Source of the DNA: Aneurinibacillus uraniidurans
GTDB lineage: Bacteria > Bacillota > Bacilli > Aneurinibacillales > Aneurinibacillaceae
Direction: 5' to 3'
Assembly (NCBI RefSeq): GCF_028471905.1
Contig: NZ_CP116902.1
Coordinates: 3,570,001-3,634,000, forward strand
DNA: 64,000 bases
Part shown: positions 18,552 through 33,394 of the stretch, piece by piece
Layout of the letters: each line of letters begins with the position of its first letter
Position numbering within the stretch: position 1 is the first letter of the stretch
The notes under the pieces: generated by a model
Database searches by the model: none
Seen by the model: the letters and a program-made list of their open reading frames with translations, nothing else
What the model was told of the DNA's origin: nothing
Program-made: the position numbers and the translations under genes

Positions 18552-19553
18552 TCACTTTCGATACTGTGCTTTTCGCTGCATAAACCCTGTCAAAAAGGTA
18601 AGCATTACATGAACCCCTGCCTTCACCGTAACCTGAGCTACATCACGATACGGATCAAGGCAGACAATATCCATCGCCTGAACAAGCGGATGGCTTCCAG
18701 CCAGGTAAACCGCTTCAAACAACTCATCCGTACGCATTCCACCAGGAGTGGCAGCCGGAACCCCCGGCGCATAAGCGATATCCAGTACGTCCATATCGAC
18801 CGTGAGATAAATGACATCGACTTTTCCACTCAGATCATCCAATGCAGCTTGAATCGTAGAAACAATGCCCTTCTCTCTCACCTGACGCAGGGTGACATAC
18901 TGAACACCTTTTTTGTCTGCATATTCTTTTAATGATTTCGCATTATAAAAGCCGTGCAGCCCTACATTCCACACGTCCTCACCAAGAATCGTACCGCTTT
19001 CGATCAAATTACGAATTGGCGTTCCATTGCTTGGACCGTTATCTTCAAGACTGCGTAAATCAAAATGAGTATCCAACTGCAAAATTCCAATACGCTGCTC
19101 TGGATGAGCCTGTTTCCAGCCTTTCACAAGCATCGCCGTAATCGAATGATCTCCTCCCAGCATAATAGGAAGTGCATGCGCATGATGCTGGCGCATCGAA
19201 ACCATAGCGTCTGTGATCCACTGATGAGAAAGAGGAATATCGGTTACATGCTGGCGCACGTCTCCTAAATCCAAAACATGCAACGGAGTTAAATCGATAT
19301 CATATTCAAGATGGTATGGATTAAATGCTTTCCATGCCTGACGCATCGCCTCCGGGTTTTCACTCGCCGCTGATGCGCTAATGGATGAACGGGACAGCGG
19401 AACCCCGAGGATGGTTACATCCACGGAGCTAAAATCCACTGTTTGTTCCTCACTAGAGAGAGTACGAATCCATTCGTTTACTTTTGGTTCCGTTCCTTGT
19501 GCGGCGGACCAGCGAAACGAAGGCGGCTTAAGCTGGGGATACGGATACTTCAT
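18552..19553 (-). CDS. hutG: Formimidoylglutamase
   Basis: 333 residues, arginase/ureohydrolase fold. Binuclear Mn ligands are visible in GGDHSIT, QLDTHFDLR and TVDMDVLDIAYAPG. It hydrolyses N-formimino-glutamate to glutamate and formamide, the last step of histidine catabolism. The ATG at 19553 has AAAGGGAG upstream and overlaps the hutI 3' end by 26 nt, so translation is coupled. Arginase or agmatinase activity is excluded mainly by the operon context (hutU-hutI-hutG). Confidence 0.93.
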   Translation of the reverse strand: MKYPYPQLKPPSFRWSAAQGTEPKVNEWIRTLSSEEQTVDFSSVDVTILGVPLSRSSISASAASENPEAMRQAWKAFNPYHLEYDIDLTPLHVLDLGDVRQHVTDIPLSHQWITDAMVSMRQHHAHALPIMLGGDHSITAMLVKGWKQAHPEQRIGILQLDTHFDLRSLEDNGPSNGTPIRNLIESGTILGEDVWNVGLHGFYNAKSLKEYADKKGVQYVTLRQVREKGIVSTIQAALDDLSGKVDVIYLTVDMDVLDIAYAPGVPAATPGGMRTDELFEAVYLAGSHPLVQAMDIVCLDPYRDVAQVTVKAGVHVMLTFLTGFMQRKAQYRK

Positions 19554-20832
19554 GCGTCAAACTCCCTTTCTGCACCACAATCTTCCCTGCTTTAATCACA
19601 GTATCTACAAGATTCACGCCGTAGTTATACTGCATATACGAATAGTTTGGTGCGTCAAATACGACGAGATCCGCTGCTTTTCCTTTTTCGAGGCTTCCTA
19701 CCCGGTGCGCCTGTTTAATCGCATGCGCCGCATTAATGGTAGCGGCAACGAGTACCTCAGCAGGTGTCATTCCCATCGTTAGACAGCCGAGATTCATGAT
19801 GAACGGCATCGATTCACTCGGAGAAGAACCAGGATTCCGGTCTGTAGACAAGGCAACAGCTACGCCAGCGTCAATCATTTTCCGGCCATTGGCAGCCTCT
19901 GCCTTCAAAAAGAAGGCTGTGCCTGGCAGCAAGACCGCAACGACTCCTTTTTCCGCCATCTGCCGGATTCCTTCATCCGATGCCCGCAAAAGGTGATCGG
20001 CCGACACAGCTCCCAGACGCGCAGCCAGTTCCGCCCCCTGATACGGTTCAATCTCATCCGCGTGAATTTTCGGAAGCAGGCCATGTTCCATCCCTGCGCG
20101 CAAAATTCTCTCGGACTGTTCCGGTGTAAACACACCGTGTTCACAAAATACATCATTAAACTGGGCAAGACCGCTTTTAGCCACTTCCGGAATCATCTCA
20201 TTTACGAGAATATCAACAAAACGATCTGGGTCGTGTTTATACTCAGCAGGCACAGCATGTGCGCCCATAAAAGTAGAAACGATATCGATTGGATGCGTAT
20301 CCTGAAGTTGCTTCGCTACATGAAGCTGCTTCATTTCATGTTCTAACGTTAAGCCATATCCACTTTTCGCTTCCACTGTCGTTACACCGTATTGCAAAAA
20401 GCGATTGAGACGCTGGTACGCTTCCTTATATAATTCTTCTTCGCTAGCAGCCTGCGTTGCACGTGTTGTATTATGAATGCCGCCGCCCGCATTCATAATC
20501 TCCATGTATGTTTTGCCAGCGAGCCGCATTTCAAATTCATTTTCCCGGCTTCCGGCAAACACCAGATGAGTATGCGGATCAATTAGCCCAGGTGTCACTA
20601 CTTTTCCTGACGCATCGATCACATCAGCTTCGTGAAGACGATCCTGATAAAAAGCTGTCACGACTTCATCCCGATCTACCATCTGGATAGAGCCGTCTTC
20701 TATCCAGACGGCTCCATCTTCAATAATGTGTAAATTGCTCATGGCTGTTCCTGTTACCGGTTGTGCAGATGTTCCTTGAAGTGTAACAAGCTGTGCTGCA
20801 TGACGAAGCAGAATCGGTTTTTGTTTCATCAT
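19528..20832 (-). CDS. hutI: Imidazolonepropionase
   Basis: 434 residues, amidohydrolase superfamily. Metal ligands appear in LIDPHTHLVFAG, GAHAVPAEY, PKIHADEIEPYQGAELA and STDRNPGSSPSESM. It opens the imidazolone ring to N-formimino-glutamate. Two adjacent ATGs (20832 and 20829) follow AAGGAGG; the second has the better spacing. It starts 9 bp after hutU and overlaps hutG. Confidence 0.95.
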   Translation of the reverse strand: MMKQKPILLRHAAQLVTLQGTSAQPVTGTAMSNLHIIEDGAVWIEDGSIQMVDRDEVVTAFYQDRLHEADVIDASGKVVTPGLIDPHTHLVFAGSRENEFEMRLAGKTYMEIMNAGGGIHNTTRATQAASEEELYKEAYQRLNRFLQYGVTTVEAKSGYGLTLEHEMKQLHVAKQLQDTHPIDIVSTFMGAHAVPAEYKHDPDRFVDILVNEMIPEVAKSGLAQFNDVFCEHGVFTPEQSERILRAGMEHGLLPKIHADEIEPYQGAELAARLGAVSADHLLRASDEGIRQMAEKGVVAVLLPGTAFFLKAEAANGRKMIDAGVAVALSTDRNPGSSPSESMPFIMNLGCLTMGMTPAEVLVAATINAAHAIKQAHRVGSLEKGKAADLVVFDAPNYSYMQYNYGVNLVDTVIKAGKIVVQKGSLTHEVSVSPA

Positions 20833-20840
20833 AACCCTCC

Positions 20841-22511
20841 TTAGCTTCGTAACATCGGAATATGAACGCCTTTATTTTTCGCTGTTTCAATTGCCAGTTC
20901 ATAGCCTGCATCTGCGTGACGAACGACTCCCATACCCGGGTCTGAAGTTAATACACGTTCGAGGCGTTTTTCTGCCGCTTCTGTTCCGTCAGCTACAATA
21001 ACCATTCCGGCATGCAGGGAGTATCCCATACCTACGCCACCGCCATGATGAACAGATACCCAGCTTGCGCCACCTACCGCATTAATCATAGCGTTAAGGA
21101 TCGGCCAGTCAGCTACAGCATCACTGCCATCACGCATTGCTTCTGTTTCCCGGTTTGGCGATGCAACGGACCCGGAATCAAGATGGTCACGTCCAATTAC
21201 AATTGGTGCTTTTAACTCACCATTGCGTACCATATCATTGATGATTTTCGCAAAACGTGCGCGTTCTCCATACCCTAACCAGCAAATGCGAGAAGGAAGC
21301 CCCTGGAATGCGATGCGTTCCTGAGCCATTTTGATCCAACGGCAAAGGTGCTCATTATAAGAGAATTCACGTAAGATCACTTCGTCTGTTTTGTAAATAT
21401 CTTCTGGATCACCGGACAGAGCAACCCAGCGGAATGGTCCTTTACCTTCACAGAATTGCGGGCGAATATACGCCGGTACGAATCCTGGGAATGCAAATGC
21501 ATTTTCTACCCCTTGGTCTAATGCAACCTGACGAATGTTGTTGCCATAGTCAAAGGCAACGGCTCCTCTTGCCTGCATATCTAAAATGGCCTGAACATGC
21601 ACAGCCATGCTCGCTTTCGAACGCTTTACATACTCTTCTGGATCAGCAGCGCGAAGCTTTGCCCCTTCTTCCAGCGTCATGTTGGCAGGCAGGTATCCAT
21701 TTAACGGATCGTGTGCTGATGTCTGATCGGTAATAACATCTGGGATAAAGTTTCGCTGAATCATTTCTGGCAAGATTTCAGCCGCATTTCCTAAGAGACC
21801 AATGGAAAGGGCACGCCCTTCTTGTTTCGCTTTTTCCGCAAGCGCAATCGCTTCGTCCAGCGTTTCCACAAGGATATCGCAATAACGAGTTTCGATACGT
21901 TTTTCGATGCGTGTGCGATCCACGTCGATCCCGATCACAACCCCATCGTTCATTGTAACCGCCAGTGGCTGAGCGCCGCCCATGCCGCCTAAACCGGCTG
22001 TAACCGTGATGGTTCCTTTCAGGCTACCTCCAAAATGCTGTTTCGCACACTCTGCGAATGTTTCGTACGTTCCTTGTACAATTCCTTGACTTCCGATATA
22101 AATCCAGCTGCCAGCTGTCATTTGTCCGTACATCATGAGACCTTTTTTATCAAGCTCATGGAAGTGATCCCAATTTGCCCAGGCTGGAACCAAGTTTGAA
22201 TTTGCAAGCAGCACCCGTGGAGCATCTGGATGAGACTTGAACACAGCAACCGGTTTTCCAGACTGTACGAGCATCGTTTCGTCATCTTCCAGATTTTTCA
22301 GTGTGTGAACAATCGCATCGAAGCTTTCCCAGTTACGAGCCGCTCTTCCAATTCCCCCATATACAACAAGGTCCTCTGGCCATTCTGCAACTTCCGGGTC
22401 AAGGTTGTTGAAAAGCATGCGCAGCGCTGCCTCCTGAACCCACCCTTTTGTATTTAACTCCGTTCCGTGTGGAGCTCGGTATACTCGTTTTTGTCCTGTT
22501 GTTTTTTCCAA
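20841..22511 (-). CDS. hutU: Urocanate hydratase
   Basis: 556 residues. Starts with TTG, preceded by AAAGGAGTGA. Urocanase features: [47 protein letters not shown], the NAD-binding [26 protein letters not shown], and near the C-terminus [17 protein letters not shown]. It converts urocanate to imidazolone propionate with tightly bound NAD. First gene of hutU-hutI-hutG. hutH is not here but about 9 kb upstream on the same strand, unlike the compact B. subtilis hutPHUIGM operon. The AraC-type gene just upstream may control it. Confidence 0.96.
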
Positions 22512-22654: not shown

Positions 22655-24154
22655 TTATTTGTTTTTCTGGACTATCTTTTTATTTCTCCAGAGACGAGGA
22701 GAACAGCCCGTACACTCCTTGAATAGGCGGCTAAAATAATTAGGGTCATCATATCCGACCGCAAAGGCAATTTCGCGTACGGTCAGCGAAGTGGATGACA
22801 GCAAATGCTTCGCCTGCTTAATGCGCACATCCATTAGATAGTGACGGAACGTTTGCTCTCTTTGGGTCGACAGCACATGGCTGAAATAGCTTGGGCTTCG
22901 TTGAACATGGCTAGCTACTTCCTCCAAACTTAGATTGGAGCGGTGAAAATGCTCATCAATGTAGCGGAGACCTCTCTCAATAAAATCACCATGTGCATTT
23001 TCCTTCTGATTCTGCGCCTGTTGAATAATATCAAAAATAAAAAGCAGCACTTCTTGTACAATTCGAAATAACACGGGCATATGCAAAATGGTTTGGAAAA
23101 TCTCCTGATAGCGAATTTCCATTTGCGATATCTTCTGAAGCTGATACGTTTGCATAAAGCGCCGCAAATGAGCAAGAATGCTCGTCATCCGAATCCGCAG
23201 CAGCTCAGGTTCAGGGAAACCCTGCGGAAATTCAGTGAACTGCTCATACATCCAGCGTTTAATAGCTGCTCTATCCCCTTCTTCAAGCATTGTCATCCAT
23301 GCTCGCTGTTCAGCAGGAGTTAAGAAAGGATCGATTTCAAGGAAAGCAGGCGTGTCCTGAATGTGCACGATTTGCTGGTACCCCTTAAAAAAAATCATGT
23401 TTAAGGCCTGTAATGCTTTTTCGTAGCAATGATGAGCGGTTAAGGAGGAATACCCGACAGATGAAAGAACAATAAACAATCTACTTTCCTGTCTCCTCGA
23501 AGCTTCTCTTTCCATACGCCGCGCTTCCTGATGCAGCATTTCGCTTGTATAAAAAGGTAACAGGCAAACAATATGCTCACGTAATGGCAGGATATACGGT
23601 TGCTGTGCAAATGAATAATTCTCTAACCATTCCGTAAGCTCTTTTAGCTCCTTTTTATCTTCCGGCTGCACGATCATCATGCTGATATCGTTACCCATCG
23701 TTACTTCCATATCAAAAAATAGTGAAGCATACTGCCTTTGCAGCGCTTCCTTCTCTATCTCTACATCCGTTACCATTCGTTCTTTTTTCCGCTGCTTGCG
23801 AACTACCTTTGTAATGAGTGGTCTGATTTGATCAGGTGACAATGGTTTGACCAAAAATCCCGCTGCTTGTAATTGGGTCGCTTGCCAGGCTCTTTCGAAA
23901 ACAGCTTCTGCTGTTACGGCGATAACAGCACCTGCATACTTTTCGATCGCCTGTATAAAAACATCCCAGCCGGTAGAAGGAATCATTTCAAGCTCTACAA
24001 AAAGCACATCCGGCTTGTACTCTTCCAGTTCTTTCATAAGCGATACCATATCTACAGCCTGGCGGATATCCGCAAATCTTATCGAATACGAATTCATCAA
24101 CCATTCAATCCCGGTCCGTTCTGTTGAATCTCTGTCAGCAATAAGCAAACGCAT
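22655..24154 (-). CDS. AraC-type response regulator with degenerate receiver (YesN-like)
   Basis: 499 residues. Residues 1-120 follow the receiver fold, but the position of the phospho-accepting Asp is Glu54 (LFVELEMIP), and the acidic pair is DRD rather than DD. The switch Lys is present in GFLVKPLS. The middle 250 residues have no clear domain. The last 100 residues are an AraC double helix-turn-helix: LSLEEVASHVQRSPSYFSHVL and LTVREIAFAVGYDDPNYFSRLFKE. No histidine kinase gene adjoins, so it may act independent of phosphorylation. Sitting between hutD and hutU, it is a candidate activator of hutUIG. Confidence 0.85.
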   Translation of the reverse strand: MRLLIADRDSTERTGIEWLMNSYSIRFADIRQAVDMVSLMKELEEYKPDVLFVELEMIPSTGWDVFIQAIEKYAGAVIAVTAEAVFERAWQATQLQAAGFLVKPLSPDQIRPLITKVVRKQRKKERMVTDVEIEKEALQRQYASLFFDMEVTMGNDISMMIVQPEDKKELKELTEWLENYSFAQQPYILPLREHIVCLLPFYTSEMLHQEARRMEREASRRQESRLFIVLSSVGYSSLTAHHCYEKALQALNMIFFKGYQQIVHIQDTPAFLEIDPFLTPAEQRAWMTMLEEGDRAAIKRWMYEQFTEFPQGFPEPELLRIRMTSILAHLRRFMQTYQLQKISQMEIRYQEIFQTILHMPVLFRIVQEVLLFIFDIIQQAQNQKENAHGDFIERGLRYIDEHFHRSNLSLEEVASHVQRSPSYFSHVLSTQREQTFRHYLMDVRIKQAKHLLSSTSLTVREIAFAVGYDDPNYFSRLFKECTGCSPRLWRNKKIVQKNK

Positions 24155-24214: not shown

Positions 24215-24835
24215 TTAATAAAAAATGCTTGCTTTTATGATACTAGCAGTTAATTCATCGTGATTACATACCTTTACTTTTATGGTTTTGCGTAAATTTT
24301 CCGCGTTTACAATCATTACGTCACCTTTCTCTAAAACCAAAACCTCATTTTCATCAATGATCGCTCGAACGCTTCCATTGACACAATAAAAAGCCTCAGA
24401 TCTTTTTGCACCTTCCCTACTATATGCAGTATCTAACACTTCATTATGGATCCCTTTTTTGAGATGAATAGCGCGAAGTTCTCCACTGCACCCTTCTGCT
24501 AACATCAAATTAAAGTCCTTTACTCTACCCATACTTCGGGTTGTCCAGTCCCCGCTAAAGCGATCCTGTTCAAATGGCTTTAAAAGCACCTGATGCTTCC
24601 CCTCATGTTGAAGAAACATTTCCCCCTCCATGATCATAATGATTCTTTGGATGCCTGGAAGAGGCGTAAATACGGATTCTTCCACTTCAACATCTGCGGA
24701 ACTAATCCGCCATTTGAAATCACGTTTCGTATAATCCGCATCTTCCGGATAAATTGCAAGTTGGGTTGTGATTCCACCTGACCAAAGGCTTGTTGTTTGT
24801 TCATTTTTTCTCATCATTTTTATTGAATAAGACAA
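24215..24835 (-). CDS. hutD: HutD family cupin protein
   Basis: 206 residues; TTG start at 24835 after AAGGGGG. The HutD signature is clear: WSGGITTQLAIYPEDADYTKRDFKWRISSADVEVEESVFTPLPGIQRIIMIM, PFEQDRFSGDWTTRSMG and DFNLMLAEG. HutD is a bicupin linked to hut operons in proteobacteria and proposed to limit operon output by binding formylglutamate-type intermediates; its role in Firmicutes is not established. It lies on the same strand between two AraC genes. Confidence 0.88.
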   Translation of the reverse strand: MSYSIKMMRKNEQTTSLWSGGITTQLAIYPEDADYTKRDFKWRISSADVEVEESVFTPLPGIQRIIMIMEGEMFLQHEGKHQVLLKPFEQDRFSGDWTTRSMGRVKDFNLMLAEGCSGELRAIHLKKGIHNEVLDTAYSREGAKRSEAFYCVNGSVRAIIDENEVLVLEKGDVMIVNAENLRKTIKVKVCNHDELTASIIKASIFY

Positions 24836-24938: not shown

Positions 24939-26174
24939 TCACGTACTTCTTAACTTGTTTGGATCTAGCGCAATATTGCGCGAACGATATTCGGACGGGC
25001 TGAACTGGTGCACTTTCTTGAACATGCGGCTAAAGTAGCTAGCATCCTGAAACCCAACCTGACTCGCGATCTGCTGCACCGTCAAATCAGTTGTCTCCAG
25101 ATAATACTTTGCTTTTTCAAGACGAAGCTTGTTGATGAAATCAATGACGCTCAGCCCCACCTCTCGCTTGAACAAATGGCTGAGGTGATATTTACTCAGA
25201 CAACAATATTGTGCTACTTCTTCCAGCATGATTCTCTCGTTCAACTGTTCCTTGATAAATCGGACGGCCTGACGAATGAGCGGGGAAACATACAGCGTCT
25301 GTGTTAACGCTATCTGTTCCGTCAATTGTCGCACATACGTGCACACCTTCTGAACGAACTTGTCGTAGCGGATCGTCCGATACAATTCCTGAATGAAATG
25401 GGCGTTCTCCGTCAAAATCGTTTCCGCACTGAATCCTGCCTCCAGCACCAGCCTCGATACCATCATCACCAAGTTGACTACTTCTGATTGAAATCGGCTA
25501 ACATTATACTGATTGGCTTGTGCCACCTTTTCCAATAGTGTTGGCAAAACAGTGATGGCTCCCTCGACATCGCCGATATGAACCCTCGCTAGCAGGTCAA
25601 CGCGCTCCCTCTCGATATTTTCTTTATAGGCGGACATCGTCTCGCGTGCTGCCGCTTCCGACTGTTTCTTTTTCATATATGAAAAAATCATACGGTTCCC
25701 CTGAAAAAAGCGGTCGATCATAGAATGCATCGCTTCCTGATATGAACGCTGTAGCATCACCGGATCGCTATAATACGTGCCGATACCGATCGAAACAGAA
25801 ATCCGCTCCGCATCGCTTGCCTTCTGGATCTCGTTGGCGATCCGTATCGCGTTTAGGCTCAGGGGCGTCTGTTCCGTTTGTACAGGCAGTTCTATTAACA
25901 AAGCCACCACCCCTTCTTCAATCCAAAGCCAGGTAAACGGAGCGGTCACCATCTTACAGATCGCCTTCATCAGCGTCTGTCCCAATTCAATCTTCCACTC
26001 AATTTCTTTTCCAATGATCAAGTCTGGATAGCGATCAACAGAAACAAGCATGACGAGTGTAGGGTTAATCGTGACTCCGTATGCCTCCTGCATCTGTTCA
26101 TATGTGTATTCATGCACAAATGTTCCCATAAGCAGCAAATGTGAAAAAGCCGCATGCTGAGGAAGTTGGTTCAT
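24939..26174 (-). CDS. AraC family regulator with GGDEF-like sensor region
   Basis: 411 residues; GGAG 9 nt before the ATG. The N-terminal 170 residues resemble a degenerate GGDEF/YesN-type middle domain, ending in ISVSIGIGTYYSDPVMLQRSYQEAM. A helical linker follows to about 300. The C-terminal AraC domain has IMLEEVAQYCCLSKYHLSHLFKREVG and LTVQQIASQVGFQDASYFSRMFKKV. It is downstream of the MFS and HAL-like genes and separated from them by a hairpin; it is the natural candidate regulator of that pair, or of hutD. Confidence 0.85.
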   Translation of the reverse strand: MNQLPQHAAFSHLLLMGTFVHEYTYEQMQEAYGVTINPTLVMLVSVDRYPDLIIGKEIEWKIELGQTLMKAICKMVTAPFTWLWIEEGVVALLIELPVQTEQTPLSLNAIRIANEIQKASDAERISVSIGIGTYYSDPVMLQRSYQEAMHSMIDRFFQGNRMIFSYMKKKQSEAAARETMSAYKENIERERVDLLARVHIGDVEGAITVLPTLLEKVAQANQYNVSRFQSEVVNLVMMVSRLVLEAGFSAETILTENAHFIQELYRTIRYDKFVQKVCTYVRQLTEQIALTQTLYVSPLIRQAVRFIKEQLNERIMLEEVAQYCCLSKYHLSHLFKREVGLSVIDFINKLRLEKAKYYLETTDLTVQQIASQVGFQDASYFSRMFKKVHQFSPSEYRSRNIALDPNKLRST

Positions 26175-26309: not shown

Positions 26310-27869
26310 CTAGAATGACATGCTGCCAATTCTTTCTTCCACAAGCTTGACGAATTCCCCATGATGAAGCTGATCGCGGATGTATTCGATATCTGGATAA
26401 AAATATCGATCCACTTTAACCGTTGGGACCATGCTGCGAATTTTTTGGTAGACGGCCTCCGTGACAGGCGATGGCTTCAACGGCTTGTGAAAATCCAGTG
26501 CCTGCGCCACGGTCATCAATTCAATCGCAAGGATGTACTCCACTTTTTTGGAGATGTGATACGCTTTCTTGGCTGCAAAGTACGCCATGCTCACCTGATC
26601 CTCCTGATTGGCACTCGTTGAAATGTTGTCAACGGTAGAGGGATGTGACAGCACCTTGATTTCCCCGAGAAGCCCTGCTGCCGTATATTGTGGAATCATA
26701 TAACCGTTATTCAACCCTGGATTGGCTACAAGAAAGCTTGGGAGCTCGCTATGATGATGATTCACGAGCCGATCGATTCGCCGCTCTGCCATTTTTGCTA
26801 AATTGGCCATTGCAATACACATGGAATCACTGTACATCCCCACATAGGTCCCATCAAAATTCCCTCCCATCAGGGCGATGCCATCGTCGTCCTCTGGGTA
26901 AATAATCGGATTGTCACCGGTAGATGCCATCTCATTCTCAATCACTTCTCGAGCATCCTTGAGCAGCTTTTTGCAAGCCCCGTGCAGTTGGGGAATACAC
27001 CGCAAGCTAAGCGCATCCTGCAGACGGTGGCTTTTGTATGCCTCTGCGATTTCGCTGCCTTTGAGGATGTGCAGGATCGTTTTTGCCGTCGCGGATTGTT
27101 CGTCGTGTTTCTTCACAGCATGCAATCGCGGATCGCACGCTTTTATTGTTCCTTTTAACGCTTCAAGAGACATCGCCCCCGCCACATCGGCTGTTTTGAC
27201 GGCTTGACTGGCATTGTACAGGGCTAACGCTGCAAAAGCGGTGATCGAGGTGGTTCCGCTGATCAAAGCCAGCCCTTCCTTGCAACCGAGCTCAATCGGC
27301 TGCAATCCCGCTCTGTGCAAAGCCTCTTTTCCTTCCAACAGTTCTCCTTGATACCATGCCTTCCCTTCCCCGATCAGCACAAGCGCCATATGGGCTTCCG
27401 GTGCTAGATAGCCGACAGAGCCTTCGCCCGGTGCAAACGGAGTGATCTCCTCATTGAGTAGGCTGGCGATCAGTTGAAGCGCTTCCAATCGTACGCCCGA
27501 GTAACCTTGTCCAAGACTGACCAGAATCATGAACTGGATGGCCCTTACGATCTCTTTCTCCAGAGGCTCGCCGACGGAAACCGCATGTGAGCGAATAATG
27601 TTATGCTGCAATGTCGTGGCATCTTCCGGGGAAATCACCTCAGTGACGTTTTCACCAAAACCAGTGGTTACGCCATAAATAAGCCGATTCTCCCGCAAAA
27701 ATCGTTCAATCAAGCTTCTCGATGCCACCACCCGATCGCAATACTGTTGTGAGAAAGACACTTTTGCCTTGTAACGGGCCACCGCCACCATTTCTTCAAC
27801 CGTAACAGGACCCGTCCCCAGTACCACGTGTTCAAGTTCGCTTGGATAACGATGCGCTTCTTTTCCCAT
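26310..27869 (-). CDS. HAL/PAL-family protein lacking the MIO Ala-Ser-Gly triad
   Basis: 519 residues; GGAAGGAAGG precedes the ATG. It is homologous to histidine ammonia-lyase throughout: YGVTTGFG (Tyr65 region), IIRSHAVSVGEP, LSLRCIPQLHGA, NEMASTGDNPIIY, SANQEDQVSMA. Where genuine lyases have GS(L/V)G-ASGD-LAP, it reads EGSVG-Y-LAPEAH (residues 150-160): four residues, including the three that cyclise to the MIO electrophile, are replaced by one Tyr. NGT of hutH is SGT here, and DAYSLRC is DALSLRC. The frame is intact, so this is not a decayed gene. Conventional ammonia-lyase chemistry is therefore unlikely; the reaction is unknown. It follows an MFS carrier gene by 55 bp. Confidence 0.9.
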   Translation of the reverse strand: MGKEAHRYPSELEHVVLGTGPVTVEEMVAVARYKAKVSFSQQYCDRVVASRSLIERFLRENRLIYGVTTGFGENVTEVISPEDATTLQHNIIRSHAVSVGEPLEKEIVRAIQFMILVSLGQGYSGVRLEALQLIASLLNEEITPFAPGEGSVGYLAPEAHMALVLIGEGKAWYQGELLEGKEALHRAGLQPIELGCKEGLALISGTTSITAFAALALYNASQAVKTADVAGAMSLEALKGTIKACDPRLHAVKKHDEQSATAKTILHILKGSEIAEAYKSHRLQDALSLRCIPQLHGACKKLLKDAREVIENEMASTGDNPIIYPEDDDGIALMGGNFDGTYVGMYSDSMCIAMANLAKMAERRIDRLVNHHHSELPSFLVANPGLNNGYMIPQYTAAGLLGEIKVLSHPSTVDNISTSANQEDQVSMAYFAAKKAYHISKKVEYILAIELMTVAQALDFHKPLKPSPVTEAVYQKIRSMVPTVKVDRYFYPDIEYIRDQLHHGEFVKLVEERIGSMSF

Positions 27870-27924: not shown

Positions 27925-29289
27925 TTACACACTCTCTATCTCCTGCACCTGCAGGGTCTGCCCCTCATCGCATAGTAAGTTGCTGGCTTCATTCAAGGCC
28001 AATGATTTGGTTTCCGGAGCCCAGGCAATGGATACAATTAACCCTATAAGTAGTACTCCAGTCATTCCAATCATTGTGAAATTCAATCCAAAAGAGTTGA
28101 GGCTTATCGGTAGAAAGAATGTTCCCGCAGCAGATCCAATCCGGCTAATTGCTGAAACAACTCCCACTCCTGTCGAACGAATTTCAGTTGGGAAAAGCTC
28201 GGCTGGATATACCAACGTAAGATTTCCCGCTGCAGCCATTACAAAAGTAAACACTACAAAGGCTATAATAACTAAGCTTTGTGGTCCATTGTGTAAAATA
28301 CTAAGAATAAACAAAGAGACCGCAAGTATGGCAAAAGTGTTAATGGTAAAACCTCTACGTGAGAACTTCTCTATACACCAAAGACCGGCAATTGTACCAA
28401 TAAGCAAGAATATATTTAATACCATGTCTACAAAGAAGCTTTCCGTAAAACCCATCGCACTTAAAATGACGGGAAGAAATGTATAAATGGCATAGTATGG
28501 AAGAACCTGACATGCATAAAAAAGACCACCAAAAGCTGTGTTTTTCCAAAGCTGTTTACTAAAAAGATCACGAAAACCATGCGTTGTTTCAGTATGATTG
28601 ATAAGTGTTTCATCAATTTCTGCATGAGGACTAACGTATTTTTTTACAATTTGACGTGCTTCATCAATGCGTCCTACACTGACAAGCCATCCCGGTGATT
28701 CAGGCGTCCCGATTCGCAAAAGAAGTACAATAAAAGCAGGAATAGCTGTACTGACAAGCATCCAACGCCAGGATTCAGGACCTGTTTGCTCCAAATAATA
28801 CCCAATAAAATTTGATGCTACATATCCAACTGTCCAAATTACGTTTAAAAAGGCTAATAGGAACCCCCGATATTTTCTAGGGGCAAATTCTGCAAGCAAT
28901 GTCGATCCGACGGTGAAGTCCCCTCCAAGAGCAAATCCTATCAGTAATCGTAGAGCAAATAAAACGGCTGGATCATTGACAAAGAATTGTAAGACTGAAG
29001 CAATGGTAATTACCAAAAAATTTAACTGGAAAATTTTTTGTCTACCTATCCTATCAGCTAGCCTTCCAAGTACTAAACATCCTAGAAATACTCCAATTAA
29101 GGCAGAACTTCCAATCAATCCTTCCCATAGAGGGCTGAGCTTCATTTGAGGACTAAGCAAAGTAAGAGCCATTCCAATAATTCCAAGGGCGTAACCATCA
29201 GAGAAATTCGCTCCAAAAGTAAGTGCAGTAATCTTTAAATGAAACTTATTGAGTGGTACATCATCCATTTTAATCTTTTGTTCGTTCAT
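27925..29289 (-). CDS. MFS transporter (sugar/aromatic-acid porter type)
   Basis: 454 residues from the ATG at 29289, which has GAGGGA upstream; a GTG eight codons earlier is open but unsupported. About twelve membrane helices. GRLADRIGRQK is the MFS loop 2-3 motif; RLLIGFALGGDFTVGSTLLAEFAPRKYRG and the TPESPGWLVSVGRIDEA stretch after helix 6 place it in the broad metabolite:proton symporter group that includes sugar and aromatic-acid porters. The paired HAL-like gene suggests an aromatic or amino-acid-derived substrate (inference). A cre-like site 60 bp upstream points to carbon catabolite repression. Confidence 0.87.
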   Translation of the reverse strand: MNEQKIKMDDVPLNKFHLKITALTFGANFSDGYALGIIGMALTLLSPQMKLSPLWEGLIGSSALIGVFLGCLVLGRLADRIGRQKIFQLNFLVITIASVLQFFVNDPAVLFALRLLIGFALGGDFTVGSTLLAEFAPRKYRGFLLAFLNVIWTVGYVASNFIGYYLEQTGPESWRWMLVSTAIPAFIVLLLRIGTPESPGWLVSVGRIDEARQIVKKYVSPHAEIDETLINHTETTHGFRDLFSKQLWKNTAFGGLFYACQVLPYYAIYTFLPVILSAMGFTESFFVDMVLNIFLLIGTIAGLWCIEKFSRRGFTINTFAILAVSLFILSILHNGPQSLVIIAFVVFTFVMAAAGNLTLVYPAELFPTEIRSTGVGVVSAISRIGSAAGTFFLPISLNSFGLNFTMIGMTGVLLIGLIVSIAWAPETKSLALNEASNLLCDEGQTLQVQEIESV

Positions 29290-29347
29290 CAAAAGATATC
29301 CCTCATTTCTCACTATAATGGTTCACTGTAACTAAAACACTACAAAT

Positions 29348-29586: not shown

Positions 29587-31017
29587 TTATTCAGCATTTC
29601 CAACAAATTGAGTCGTTTCGATTTCGTTCGTTGTCTGCTCGCCTTCTTGTTTCTTTTTGATACGTAAGAAGTAGTAGAGGTAACAGCCAGCCATAAATGG
29701 AAGCCCACAGTATAGAGCCATTCGCTGCTCTGCATCAAATGCCATGCTAACAATCACAATTGAGCATAATACCGTGCAAAGAATAGGTACGAACGGATAA
29801 AGTGGAGTTCGATACTTTAACTCATCTAGTTTCCCCCCCGCTTCAAGAAAGCGCTTACGAAATAGGTATTGCGAAACACCCACTCCCAGCCACACGACAA
29901 TACCCGCCAGACCCGCAACCGAAACAAGCAAGACATAAAGAGTATCTTCCGCTACAAAGCTGGACAAAAGTGACAGACAGGCAACCGCGAGAGTCGTGAT
30001 CAAAGCGTTAAGCGGTATTTGTTTTCTGCTTAGCTTTCCTAAGAAAGGACTTGCCATTCCATCACGAGCTAACCCCCATAACATACGTGAACCCGCATAA
30101 AGCCCCGAATTCCCTACCGAGAGTACAGCAGTAAGAATAACAAAGTTCATAAAATCAGCTGCATACGGAATCCCAACTCCATCGAAAACCATGACAAATG
30201 GACTTTCGATTACACCGGCCTTGCGCCAAGGAATTAAACCAACTAGTACAATCATCGAAATCACATAAAAGAACATCGTGCGCCATGCAGTGGCACGGAT
30301 CGAACGTGGGATCGTTTTTTCCGGCTTTTCACTTTCACCTGCGGCTACACCGATCACTTCAGTCCCTTGGAACGAAAAAGTAACAGCAATCATCGAAAGA
30401 AGTACAGCGCTAATTCCTTTTGGAAATAGCCCACCGTCATTCACAAAGTTGGAAAACATAGGAGCATGCTGTCCTTTTATAGAGATAAAGCCAAACAATA
30501 CGGAACTGCCCACTACGATAAAGAGAATGATCGCAACAACTTTAATACTTGAAAACCAAAATTCTGTTTCCGCAAAACTTTTTGCCGAGAATGCATTCAT
30601 CAAAAATAACGAGACAGCAAACACGATACACCACACCCATACCGGTGTCATCGGAAACCAGCGCTTCATTAACATTCCGGCAGCAGTAAATTCTACGCCC
30701 ACTGTAACCGCCCAATTAAGCCAATACATCCACCCGATCGTAAATCCAGTGGCGGGTCCTATATATTTACTCGCATATGTTTGGAAGGAACCTGCTACTG
30801 GCATAGCAACAGCCAGTTCACCCAGGCAGAGCATGACAAGGTACATGAGGAAGCCTCCCGCGATATACGCGAGAACGGCTCCTCCTGGACCTGCTTGATT
30901 AATTGTATATCCAGCACCAAGGAATAAACCTGTACCGATTACTCCGCCAATCGAAATCATAAATAAATGTCTGCTTTTCATGGTACGCTGTAATTCGTGC
31001 TGATTCCCGTTACCCAT
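29587..31017 (-). CDS. hutM: Histidine permease, APC family
   Basis: 476 residues with about twelve membrane helices. First helix [19 protein letters not shown] is the AAT-branch substrate motif; later [24 protein letters not shown] and [17 protein letters not shown]. It starts 68 bp after hutH on the same strand, and length and position match HutM of the B. subtilis hut operon, so histidine import is the likely job. Substrate specificity itself cannot be read from the sequence. Confidence 0.8.
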
Positions 31018-31085: not shown

Positions 31086-32609
31086 TTATACAGTGAGTTC
31101 CTTAGGAGTTTGTTTGATTACCTGGTTAACGTCTGTTGCTTTTAAAAATTGGTCAACAGCGTTGATGTCTTTAGAAAAAATACGATCTTTTGTCATCGCC
31201 GGAGTAACGGTCCGCGCCATTGTATGGAATTGTTTTGTGATTGATGCTGTCTTCTCTACACCGCGATACTCAACCGCCTGGAGAGCGCATATTAATTCAA
31301 TCGCCAGCACCTTACGGCAATTGAGAACTACTTGATACGCATGACGTGCACCGATCGTTCCCATACTTACATGATCTTCTTGATTAGCAGATGACGGAAT
31401 CGAATCTACGCTGGCCGGATGGGCAAGTGTTTTGTTTTCAGAAACAAGTGCTGCCGCGCAATATTGCAGAATCATCGCCCCTGACTGTACACCCGGCTGT
31501 GGGCTCAAAAACGGTGGCAGATCATTCAATTGCGGATTCACAAGTCGCTCGATGCGTCGCTCTGAAATATTCGCAAACTCAGCCATGGCAATCGCTAAAA
31601 AGTCCATCGCAAGAGCAATCGGCTGGCCGTGGAAGTTTCCGCCTGAAATAACCTTTTCACCGTCATCAAAAATGAGCGGATTATCCGTTGCGGCGTTGAT
31701 CTCAATTTCCAGCTTTTCTTTCACGTAATTAAGTGCTTGCCAGGATGCCCCATGTACTTGTGGAATGCAACGAAGCGAGTATGCGTCCTGCACACGAAGC
31801 TCCCCTTGTCGAGTAATCAACTTGCTATCAGCTACGTAGCTGCGAATCCGCTCTGCTACCGCGATTTGCTCCGGATAGCCGCGTACGATTTGTACTTCTT
31901 CCGCAAACGCATCGATGATGCCGCGCAATCCTTCCAGCGTCAGCGAAGCGATTAACTCTGATTGATACGCAAGCTGCTCCGCTTCTAAATATGCCACAAC
32001 ACCCATCGCTGTCATAGCCTGCGTTCCGTTAATAAGAGCCAGCCCTTCCTTCGCTGTTAACACAAGAGGTGTAATTCCTTCTTTCTGTAATGCAGTGAGT
32101 GACGGAACGATTTCTCCTTTATAAAACACTTCCCCTTCTCCAATAAGAGCGAGAGTCAAATGAGACAGAGGCGCTAAATCACCACTCGCACCAAGCGATC
32201 CTTGCTGCGGCACTACAGGGTGGATCTGCTTATTTAACAGGGCAAGCAAGCAGTCAACGACCTGACGACGTACACCGGAGTGCCCTTTGAGCAGAGCATT
32301 CGCTCGCAACAGAAGCATTGCCCGCGATACGATTTCCGGAAATGGTTCGCCAACGCCGCAAGCGTGACTGCGAATCAAATTGAGTTGCAAACTTTCTACA
32401 TCTTTTTGATCAATCACAACATCACTTAGTTTGCCAAATCCTGTGTTAATTCCATATGCTACGCGATTTTCTGCCACAATTTTTTCAACGGCTCGCCGAC
32501 TAGCATCTACACGTTCTAAACTTTCTACTGAAGCTACCACCTTTTCATTGTTATACAAAACGGCCTTCACATCCGCCAATGTGAGTGAATGTCCTTTTAC
32601 TGTAATCAT
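31086..32609 (-). CDS. hutH: Histidine ammonia-lyase
   Basis: 507 residues from the ATG at 32609, following AAAGGAGG; the open frame extends 14 codons into the leader hairpin. The MIO triad Ala141-Ser142-Gly143 sits in [14 protein letters not shown]. Other catalytic features: [43 protein letters not shown]. It deaminates histidine to urocanate. It is the canonical enzyme of the window, in contrast to the MIO-less paralog 3 kb downstream. Expression should depend on HutP antitermination at the leader directly ahead. Confidence 0.96.
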
Positions 32610-32635
32610 CTGTTCCAGCCTCCTTTTTTTATACA

Positions 32636-32704
32636 AAAAGGGGGGCTGCATACACTTAAATAGAGCGAAAAAATCGCTTTCTTTAAGAAATATGCAGCCC
32701 CCTG
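32636..32704 (-). terminator. HutP-controlled terminator in the hutH leader
   Basis: Minus strand: GGGGGCTGCATA (32691-32702 complement) pairs with TATGCAGCCCCC, then TTTTT. Inner arms CTTAAA/TTTAAG and AGCGA/TCGCT lengthen the stem. It ends 25 nt before the hutH start and sits where B. subtilis has its HutP-dependent terminator. Confidence 0.85.
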
Positions 32705-32938: not shown

Positions 32939-33394
32939 CTAAATATGATTAATGCCAAGCCCTAATGTTTCGTGCTCCAATCCTCTAACAGGAGCTCCGA
33001 TTGTTCCGTAGAGTGCAACTGCAATCCACTCGTCCTCCCGCTCCTGATCATACGGTCTTCCTCTCACAATCGCAAAGTTTAATCCAACGGTGCGAAGCAC
33101 GGTCCCAAGTTGAACCTGTCCCCTGGTTACCCCTTGCATCGCTTCAAGAATGGCGTGATACAGCGAATGTGTCTCACGGTAAAACGAACCATCAATGATT
33201 GTTTTTTTCGCAGCTGTTTCCACTGCAGCAACGACCTTGTGAGCATCCATCGAGCCTACTTTTCCCTTGCAGAACCGATAACCTACATTTTTCAATTGTG
33301 CAAGCAGAACGCTTTCTGCTTCATGATCGCCTTCTTCCAGAAGAGCCAGCTGCATTGCCATCTTTCCAATTCGACGTTCAATGTATAAAGACAT
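32939..33394 (-). CDS. hutP: Hut operon antiterminator HutP
   Basis: 151 residues, the usual HutP length. In the presence of histidine and Mg2+ the hexameric RNA-binding protein prevents formation of the terminator ahead of hutH. Conserved stretches include [13 protein letters not shown] near the N-terminus, the [25 protein letters not shown] block and the C-terminal [27 protein letters not shown], where the GTIGAPxRGxEHE part forms the ligand site. Its target terminator lies immediately downstream. Confidence 0.95.

Follow-up and report, generated by a model that had tools for sequence, protein, structure and literature searches.

The gene at positions 26310 to 27869 (minus strand) of the window, the whole 64,000-nucleotide stretch of Aneurinibacillus uraniidurans DNA analysed here, encodes HALx, a paralogue of histidine ammonia-lyase (HAL) that has lost the residues from which HAL builds its MIO electrophile. 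HALx is probably a hercynine trimethylammonia-lyase, which would convert hercynine to trans-urocanate and trimethylamine. Hercynine, also called N-alpha-trimethylhistidine or histidine betaine, is a precursor of ergothioneine. HAL requires MIO since ammonia leaves poorly; a quaternary trimethylammonium leaves well by itself, and for this reason MIO is proposed to be dispensable in HALx. MIO-free trimethylamine-lyases of the HAL fold are already known in the form of ergothionase, which lacks MIO (PMC13405746), and HALx adds a new putative variant. Searches of the open-access literature found no description of a hercynine lyase, subscription journals being outside their scope.

The evidence is read from sequence: the MIO-less form itself, its conservation, the pattern of residues around it, the operon context, and a link to transporters. 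From these, we infer the substrate and product, the catalytic base, and the parts played by Tyr154 and Asp339. In the proposed reaction, the betaine would be taken up by a transporter, which is the MFS protein in the window operon and BCCT or OpuAC elsewhere. Its carboxylate would be held by the retained Arg283 and Gln277 and its imidazole by His83, Met382, and Glu414, as in HAL. The N(CH3)3+ group would sit in the space freed by the MIO-loop deletion and the replacement of Tyr280 by Leu, where Tyr154 and the position-330 acid would also help to receive it. Tyr53 of the mobile loop would take the beta-proton, trimethylamine would depart without help from MIO, and urocanate would pass to HutU, HutI, and HutG.

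Loss of the cofactor triad in HALx

HALx is an intact reading frame for 519 amino acids with an ATG start and zero internal stops, as expected from the initial annotation, which had described a full-length, intact HAL homologue. The genome contains exactly two PF00221 proteins, HALx (584.7 bits) and HutH (664.7 bits). HALx also passes the curated NCBIfam hutH rule, TIGR01225, with 569 bits against a cut-off of 539. This rule is blind to the missing triad, and because it lets HALx through, HALx is misannotated as hutH. The NCBIfam 20.0 matches include neither an ergothionase model nor a HALx model.

The lesion lies within GSVGYLAPEAH (residues 150 to 160; 27390 to 27422, minus strand), which matches the HAL site GS(V/L)G-ASGD-LAP. 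In the alignment, A142-S143-G144-D145 of P. putida HAL is replaced by the single residue Tyr154, leaving HALx with a net three residues fewer. Thus, the loss of Ala-Ser-Gly described earlier is correct as to the three missing residues, but the actual change is ASGD to Y rather than a clean removal of the triad. As read, the site is unable to form MIO. A search for homologues with the GYLAPEAH form, which the initial annotation had proposed as a check, reveals that the form is widespread and that ASGD to Y is invariant in 86 of 86 aligned family members, which come from Bacilli, Clostridia, Burkholderiaceae, and Actinomycetota. Between the window HALx and that of a sister species, dN/dS is 0.015/0.147 (about 0.10), resembling the neighbouring hut genes, and HALx is under purifying selection. 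Because of the invariant lesion and the low dN/dS, HALx is neither an error nor a relic. The shared lesion rules out a sequencing or assembly error, the refutation that had been envisaged; together with the intact reading frame and the dN/dS, it also rules out decay to a pseudogene, in agreement with the earlier opinion that this is not a decayed lyase.

Structure prediction, the other proposed check, also places HALx firmly in the HAL fold. The AlphaFold2 model, built from an alignment of 47 locus-derived sequences, has a pLDDT of 92.2 and a pTM of 0.93. Its best fold matches in the PDB are HAL structures (TM 0.91), and 6s7j, the Treponema denticola ergothionase, which releases trimethylamine from ergothioneine, is also close (TM 0.86). 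As a solved MIO-less member of the fold, 6s7j contradicts the earlier statement that the HAL relatives all need MIO. The suggestion of a conserved enzyme with a chemistry unlike that of HAL is supported.

Active-site residues of HutH, HALx, and ergothionase

The HAL pocket for imidazole and carboxylate (His83, Gln277, Arg283, Met382, and Glu414 in HAL numbering) is present in the window HALx, as are Tyr53 and, in the alignment to P. putida HAL, the surrounding loop. This loop, YGVTTGFG (residues 65 to 72; 27654 to 27677, minus strand, as for all of the following residues), carries Tyr65, the equivalent of HAL Tyr53 and a candidate catalytic base. His95 (27585 to 27587) corresponds to the imidazole-binding His83. 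Within QDALSLR (residues 284 to 290; 27000 to 27020), Leu287 replaces HAL Tyr280, and Arg290 is the carboxylate-binding Arg283. Asp339 (26853 to 26855) occupies HAL position 330 and is a candidate partner of the trimethylammonium group. Met391 (26697 to 26699) is Met382 of the imidazole pocket, and QED (residues 422 to 424; 26598 to 26606) contains Glu423, the equivalent of the imidazole-binding Glu414. The initial annotation had noted changes at the DAYSLRC and NGT positions, which indeed read DALSLRC (Tyr280 to Leu287) and SGT (Asn195 to Ser204), and it had correctly listed Arg (Arg283), Gln (Gln277), Glu (Glu414), and the YGxxTGFG loop as kept. Across the family, Tyr53, His83, Gln277, Arg283, Met382, Gln385, and Glu414 are invariant (86/86); Tyr280 is kept in 12 of the 86 members and Asn195 in 33.

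Comparison of 16 HutH, 86 HALx, and 11 ergothionase sequences, the last without the aberrant HAL homologue of a Brevibacillus locus (L170), reveals three patterns. HutH contains ASGD, Tyr280 (16/16), His330 (16/16), and Met382; neither Leu280 nor an acid at 330 is present in any of the 16. HALx contains a lone Tyr in place of ASGD, Leu280 (73/86), Asp330 (82/86), and Met382 (86/86). In ergothionases two residues precede a retained Asp145, Leu280 and a Glu or Asp at 330 are each found in 11/11, and Met382 is lost, position 382 being Gly, Ser, Asp, and others. The window HALx is MIO-less and has both Leu at 280 and an acid at 330. By this alignment, HALx mostly shares the changes on the leaving-group side with ergothionase and the whole imidazole pocket with HutH. 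This mixed pattern therefore predicts a trimethylammonium group on an ordinary imidazole, that is, hercynine as the substrate. The Leu280 and acid-330 marks are not universal in HALx, because the deepest-branching subclade (L052 to L055) has His at 330 and, as noted, 12 members retain Tyr280.

These patterns set HALx apart from each of its known relatives. Like HutH (EC 4.3.1.3; 1b8f and 1gkm), with which it shares the fold, 38% identity, the imidazole and carboxylate residues, an operon, and the predicted product urocanate, HALx would act on an imidazole; unlike HutH, it has no Ala-Ser-Gly or MIO, has Leu for Tyr280 and Asp for His330, has a dedicated transporter, and is predicted to release trimethylamine rather than ammonia. 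Like ergothionase, HALx is a MIO-less superfamily member, mostly has Leu280 and the acid at 330, is proposed to expel trimethylamine from a histidine betaine, and often has a BCCT carrier. However, the two are only 27% identical in the fold comparison and form separate clades, and HALx has ASGD to Y where ergothionase keeps Asp145, retains Met382, and adjoins an ordinary urocanate hydratase rather than a thiourocanate hydratase. PAL, TAL, and TAM share the superfamily, the fold, and the Tyr53 loop with HALx but are MIO-dependent, and their pocket is aromatic in place of the His83, Met382, and Glu414 of HAL and HALx.

The hut operon in the window

The initial annotation did not draw on the operon, whose gene context points to the HALx substrate. 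On the minus strand, the operon begins with the antiterminator HutP (32939 to 33394; NF002838, 229 bits), followed by the canonical, GASGD-containing HutH (31086 to 32651; TIGR01225, 725.5 bits), an amino-acid permease (29587 to 31017; NCBIfam search), and an MFS transporter (27925 to 29313) that, by the neighbour counts below, travels with HALx and is a candidate hercynine importer. The nearest NCBIfam models for this transporter, an aromatic acid/H+ symport and a "cation transport protein" subfamily, are both below cut-off. After HALx come an AraC-type regulator (24939 to 26174), which also recurs in the neighbour counts, a Ves/HutD-like protein (24215 to 24835) named by context since its NF008488 match is weak (40.4 bits; cut-off 292), and a response-regulator/AraC fusion (22655 to 24154; NCBIfam search). 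Next in order are the urocanate hydratase HutU (20841 to 22511; TIGR01228, 1002 bits against a cut-off of 375), the imidazolonepropionase HutI (19528 to 20832; TIGR01224, 501.5 bits), and the formimidoylglutamase HutG (18552 to 19553), which is barely at the TIGR01227 cut-off (229.4 versus 229.15 bits). This HutU is not a thiourocanate hydratase, scoring 707 bits with NF058530 against a cut-off of 930. No EgtD over cut-off was found in the window genome, and therefore hercynine would be scavenged.

The sister species has its MFS-HALx pair at the opposite end of the hut operon. The HALx proteins of the two species are 97% identical, and the adjacent MFS carrier (L044:11663-13003 in the sister species) is only 70% identical. 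Together, the low identity of the carrier and the different operon ends suggest either transporter exchange or a separate insertion.

Neighbours of HALx in other genomes

Genes within 6 kb of 91 HALx loci were counted and compared with those near 20 true HutH genes from these genomes; relatedness among the loci was ignored in these counts and in the p values. An MFS transporter of the window type is beside HALx in 37/91 loci and beside HutH in 0/20 (p 1e-4), and BCCT in 31/91 and 0/20 (Fisher p 8e-4). Two of the 91 loci have OpuAC-type binding proteins, so that 33 have a quaternary-amine carrier of the BCCT or OpuAC type, the window HALx itself adjoining MFS instead. The MFS, BCCT, and OpuAC sets are disjoint, and 70 of the 91 loci carry one of them, which favours hercynine. 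A Pfam check on representatives confirmed BCCT and OpuAC, with PF02028 on three BCCT proteins. On the other hand, the MFS protein, the commonest HALx neighbour, is outside the known betaine carrier families.

HutU is near HALx in 27/91 loci and HutI in 28/91, compared with 5/20 each for HutH. Thus, HALx adjoins ordinary HutU and HutI about as often as true HutH does, again in favour of hercynine, although the presence of HutU within 6 kb in only about 30% of HALx loci counts against it. All seven scored hydratases adjoining HALx outside the window pass TIGR01228 and fall under the NF058530 cut-off. HutG is within 6 kb in 13/91 loci, and AraC is beside HALx in 25/91 and HutH in 0/20.

Particular genomes also argue for hercynine. 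The Paenibacillus alginolyticus cluster reads MFS-HALx-AraC-HutG-HutU-HutI-glutamate dehydrogenase-malic enzyme-HutD-like, and in this draft assembly no HutH was found, HALx being the sole hutH-family protein. Paenibacillus agri was dropped as a second genome of this kind, a homologue there with Ala-Cys-Gly being one that could still form the cofactor. In Acidaminococcus massiliensis, the neighbours of HALx are HutD-like, FtcD, and formate-THF ligase genes; a separate ergothionase, 80% identical to 6s7j and with its own BCCT, lies 4 kb beyond this cluster. C. symbiosum likewise carries one BCCT-HALx pair and a separate BCCT-ergothionase pair; ergothionase activity has been reported for this species (PMC13405746).

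Two neighbourhoods hold further genes. In A. massiliensis, a xanthine-dehydrogenase-like molybdenum hydroxylase (L239:6720-9802) is immediately 5' of the ergothionase and BCCT genes, where anaerobic thiourocanate processing is a possible role. Downstream of HALx in Alicyclobacillus shizuokensis (L048:16798-17865) are two genes of the S-Me-thiohydantoin-desulfurase family (DUF917), both scoring under the curated cut-offs, and a cytosine-type permease.

Alternative activities

The resemblance to ergothionase raises the question of whether HALx simply converts ergothioneine to thiourocanate and trimethylamine. HALx matches 6s7j in a PDB search (E 5e-52), the two folds are similar, both are MIO-less with mostly Leu280 and an acid at 330, and HALx adjoins ergothionases in several gut genomes. 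In a phmmer search of the PDB with fragments, HALs ranked above 6s7j, and ergothionases from loci with thiourocanate hydratase (NF058530), which catalyses the following step of the ergothioneine pathway, were used for comparison instead. Two HAL homologues from such loci have 6s7j as their top PDB match (505 and 258 bits). These loci usually hold genes for thiohydantoin-desulfurase-like proteins, OpuAC, or ErtD/ErtE. Bona fide ergothionases, at 47 to 80% identity to 6s7j, are encoded by genes of their own, which often have thiourocanate hydratase and thiohydantoin desulfurase as neighbours. Thiourocanate hydratase is over cut-off in 4 of 39 HALx genomes, with a near-miss at a contig end in a fifth; in all five it lies at another locus than HALx, beside a different HAL homologue, and none over cut-off was found in the window genome. 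HALx also falls in another clade, with Met382 kept and Asp145 deleted in 86/86 and a lesion unlike the replacement of ASG by two residues. An ergothionase activity is thus distinctly unlikely for the family, and for the window HALx it is rejected on the tests of clade, lesion, pocket, and thiourocanate hydratase. The Ert pathway (NF058530, the NF058529 thiohydantoin desulfurase, ErtD, and ErtE) is better seen as a parallel, running from a betaine lyase through a hydratase and an amidohydrolase to glutamate; HALx differs in pairing with the standard HutU, HutI, and HutG, and the Ert set is at a separate locus even where both exist.

Another N-methylated imidazole amino acid, such as N-alpha,N-alpha-dimethylhistidine or a ring-methylated histidine betaine, is an unlikely substrate, though it draws on the DAO oxidases (N-methyltryptophan-oxidase- or sarcosine-oxidase-like) that are beside HALx in 23/91 loci and HutH in 0/20 and point to N-methylated amino acids in general. 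A DAO neighbour scores 446.7 bits with NF008425 (cut-off 257); examples of these FAD enzymes are L114:817-1965 and L238:1005-2135. They may demethylate mono- or dimethyl-histidine, and their recurrence, which weighs against the hercynine reading, could mean that these compounds are targets as well. As the HALx substrate, however, a tertiary amine leaves less readily than a quaternary one, the presence of BCCT and OpuAC carriers indicates a quaternary substrate, and the adjoining hydratase is of the ordinary urocanate type. A non-imidazole betaine (of tyrosine, phenylalanine, or tryptophan), at least in some subclades, is a little more doubtful than an ergothionase activity. The HALx genes of Burkholderiaceae and Actinomycetota are without nearby hut genes, have SBP_bac_3, LysR, and FMN monooxygenase neighbours, and may use other substrates; yet His83, Met382, and Glu414 are invariant in these proteins too, and the window HALx is inside a complete hut operon. 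That HALx is non-catalytic, as a histidine or urocanate sensor or a regulatory subunit of HutH, is very improbable. The missing triad, the operon shared with an active-looking HutH, and the adjoining AraC regulator would fit, but the catalytic-site residues are conserved to the level of an enzyme, the P. alginolyticus draft has HALx but no HutH, as do loci with their own transporter and downstream hut genes, and the transporter-lyase module shifts to different hut-operon positions between sister species. The invariant pocket residues and mobile Tyr53 loop likewise make the binding protein that the initial annotation offered as an alternative unlikely. Hardly credible is an ammonia-lyase with a MIO-like electrophile made from other residues: the triad does vary, with Cys-Ser-Gly in Streptomyces HutH and Ala-Cys-Gly in a Paenibacillus homologue, but in HALx three backbone positions are gone, a single Tyr before Leu taking the place of four residues in 86/86.

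Implications of the proposed hercynine lyase

On balance, we lean toward the view that an unrecognised hercynine trimethylammonia-lyase is carried by a MIO-free and widely distributed branch of HAL relatives. Such an enzyme would connect hercynine directly with the hut pathway of soil and gut bacteria, and the trimethylamine that it releases would so far have gone uncounted. If so, several hundred bacterial genes labelled hutH (at least 585 homologous stretches) do not act on histidine, and they would define the missing catabolic route for hercynine. Gut Clostridia and Acidaminococcus would gain a second, unrecognised route to trimethylamine, from dietary histidine betaine, which would bear on the trimethylamine N-oxide debate. 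Divergent homologues were left out of account in that context, as stated in PMC13405746. HALx and HutH also offer a test of when MIO is needed, with one imidazole pocket, with or without MIO, and two leaving groups.

Distribution and phylogeny of HALx and its relatives

A class-wide search of 399 Bacilli genomes found the MIO-less HALx form down to 46% identity. When an alignment of the 58-residue motif was searched against the genomes of 84,980 species, at least 585 relatives or homologous stretches were confirmed, of which 80 were kept for further work; these are from Bacilli, Clostridia, Acidaminococcus, Paraburkholderia/Trinickia, Streptomyces, and Mycobacterium. A degenerate DNA pattern for the motif, run over 398 genomes of the phylum, was too strict, its sole match being the window.

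HALx forms a single clade (support 99/98) and the ergothionases a separate one (100/100). A careful tree rooted with tyrosine aminomutase joins HALx with the ergothionases (100/100), and in a broader, quick tree its partner is HutH; the AU test does not reject a constraint grouping HALx with HutH (p 0.43). Since the relation of HALx and ergothionase to HutH varies with rooting, one loss of MIO or two are both possible on these trees. The differing lesions of HALx and ergothionase favour two separate losses, without proving them.

Other members of the superfamily depart from the triad in their own ways. The Streptomyces relatives L202, L203, and L204 are further HAL homologues without it (GSIGTGDLTAL; GSAGEILALAHL), which suggests MIO loss in yet further branches. 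A homologue in Paenibacillus agri (L236:9033-10649) has Ala-Cys-Gly (GSVGACGDLAP) and adjoins an ABC transporter and a DAO oxidase, and the L170 homologue (L170:3520-5100), in a thiourocanate-hydratase locus, reads GSLGVGDLQP. Other, divergent proteins resembling HALx read GSVGYISLEAH or GSVGYLGVEGH (L240:5981-7534, L242:8144-9721, and L076:7734-9287), and some of them are tandem second copies beside HALx. Finally, a HALx subclade from Burkholderiaceae (L068 to L094), Mycobacterium (L102 and L123), and Streptomyces (L105 and L117) keeps Tyr280 and possibly has another substrate or assay condition. The Burkholderiaceae members adjoin a LysR regulator and a binding protein of the SBP_bac_3 type, and that of M. 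aquaticum is near an NtaA-type FMN monooxygenase.
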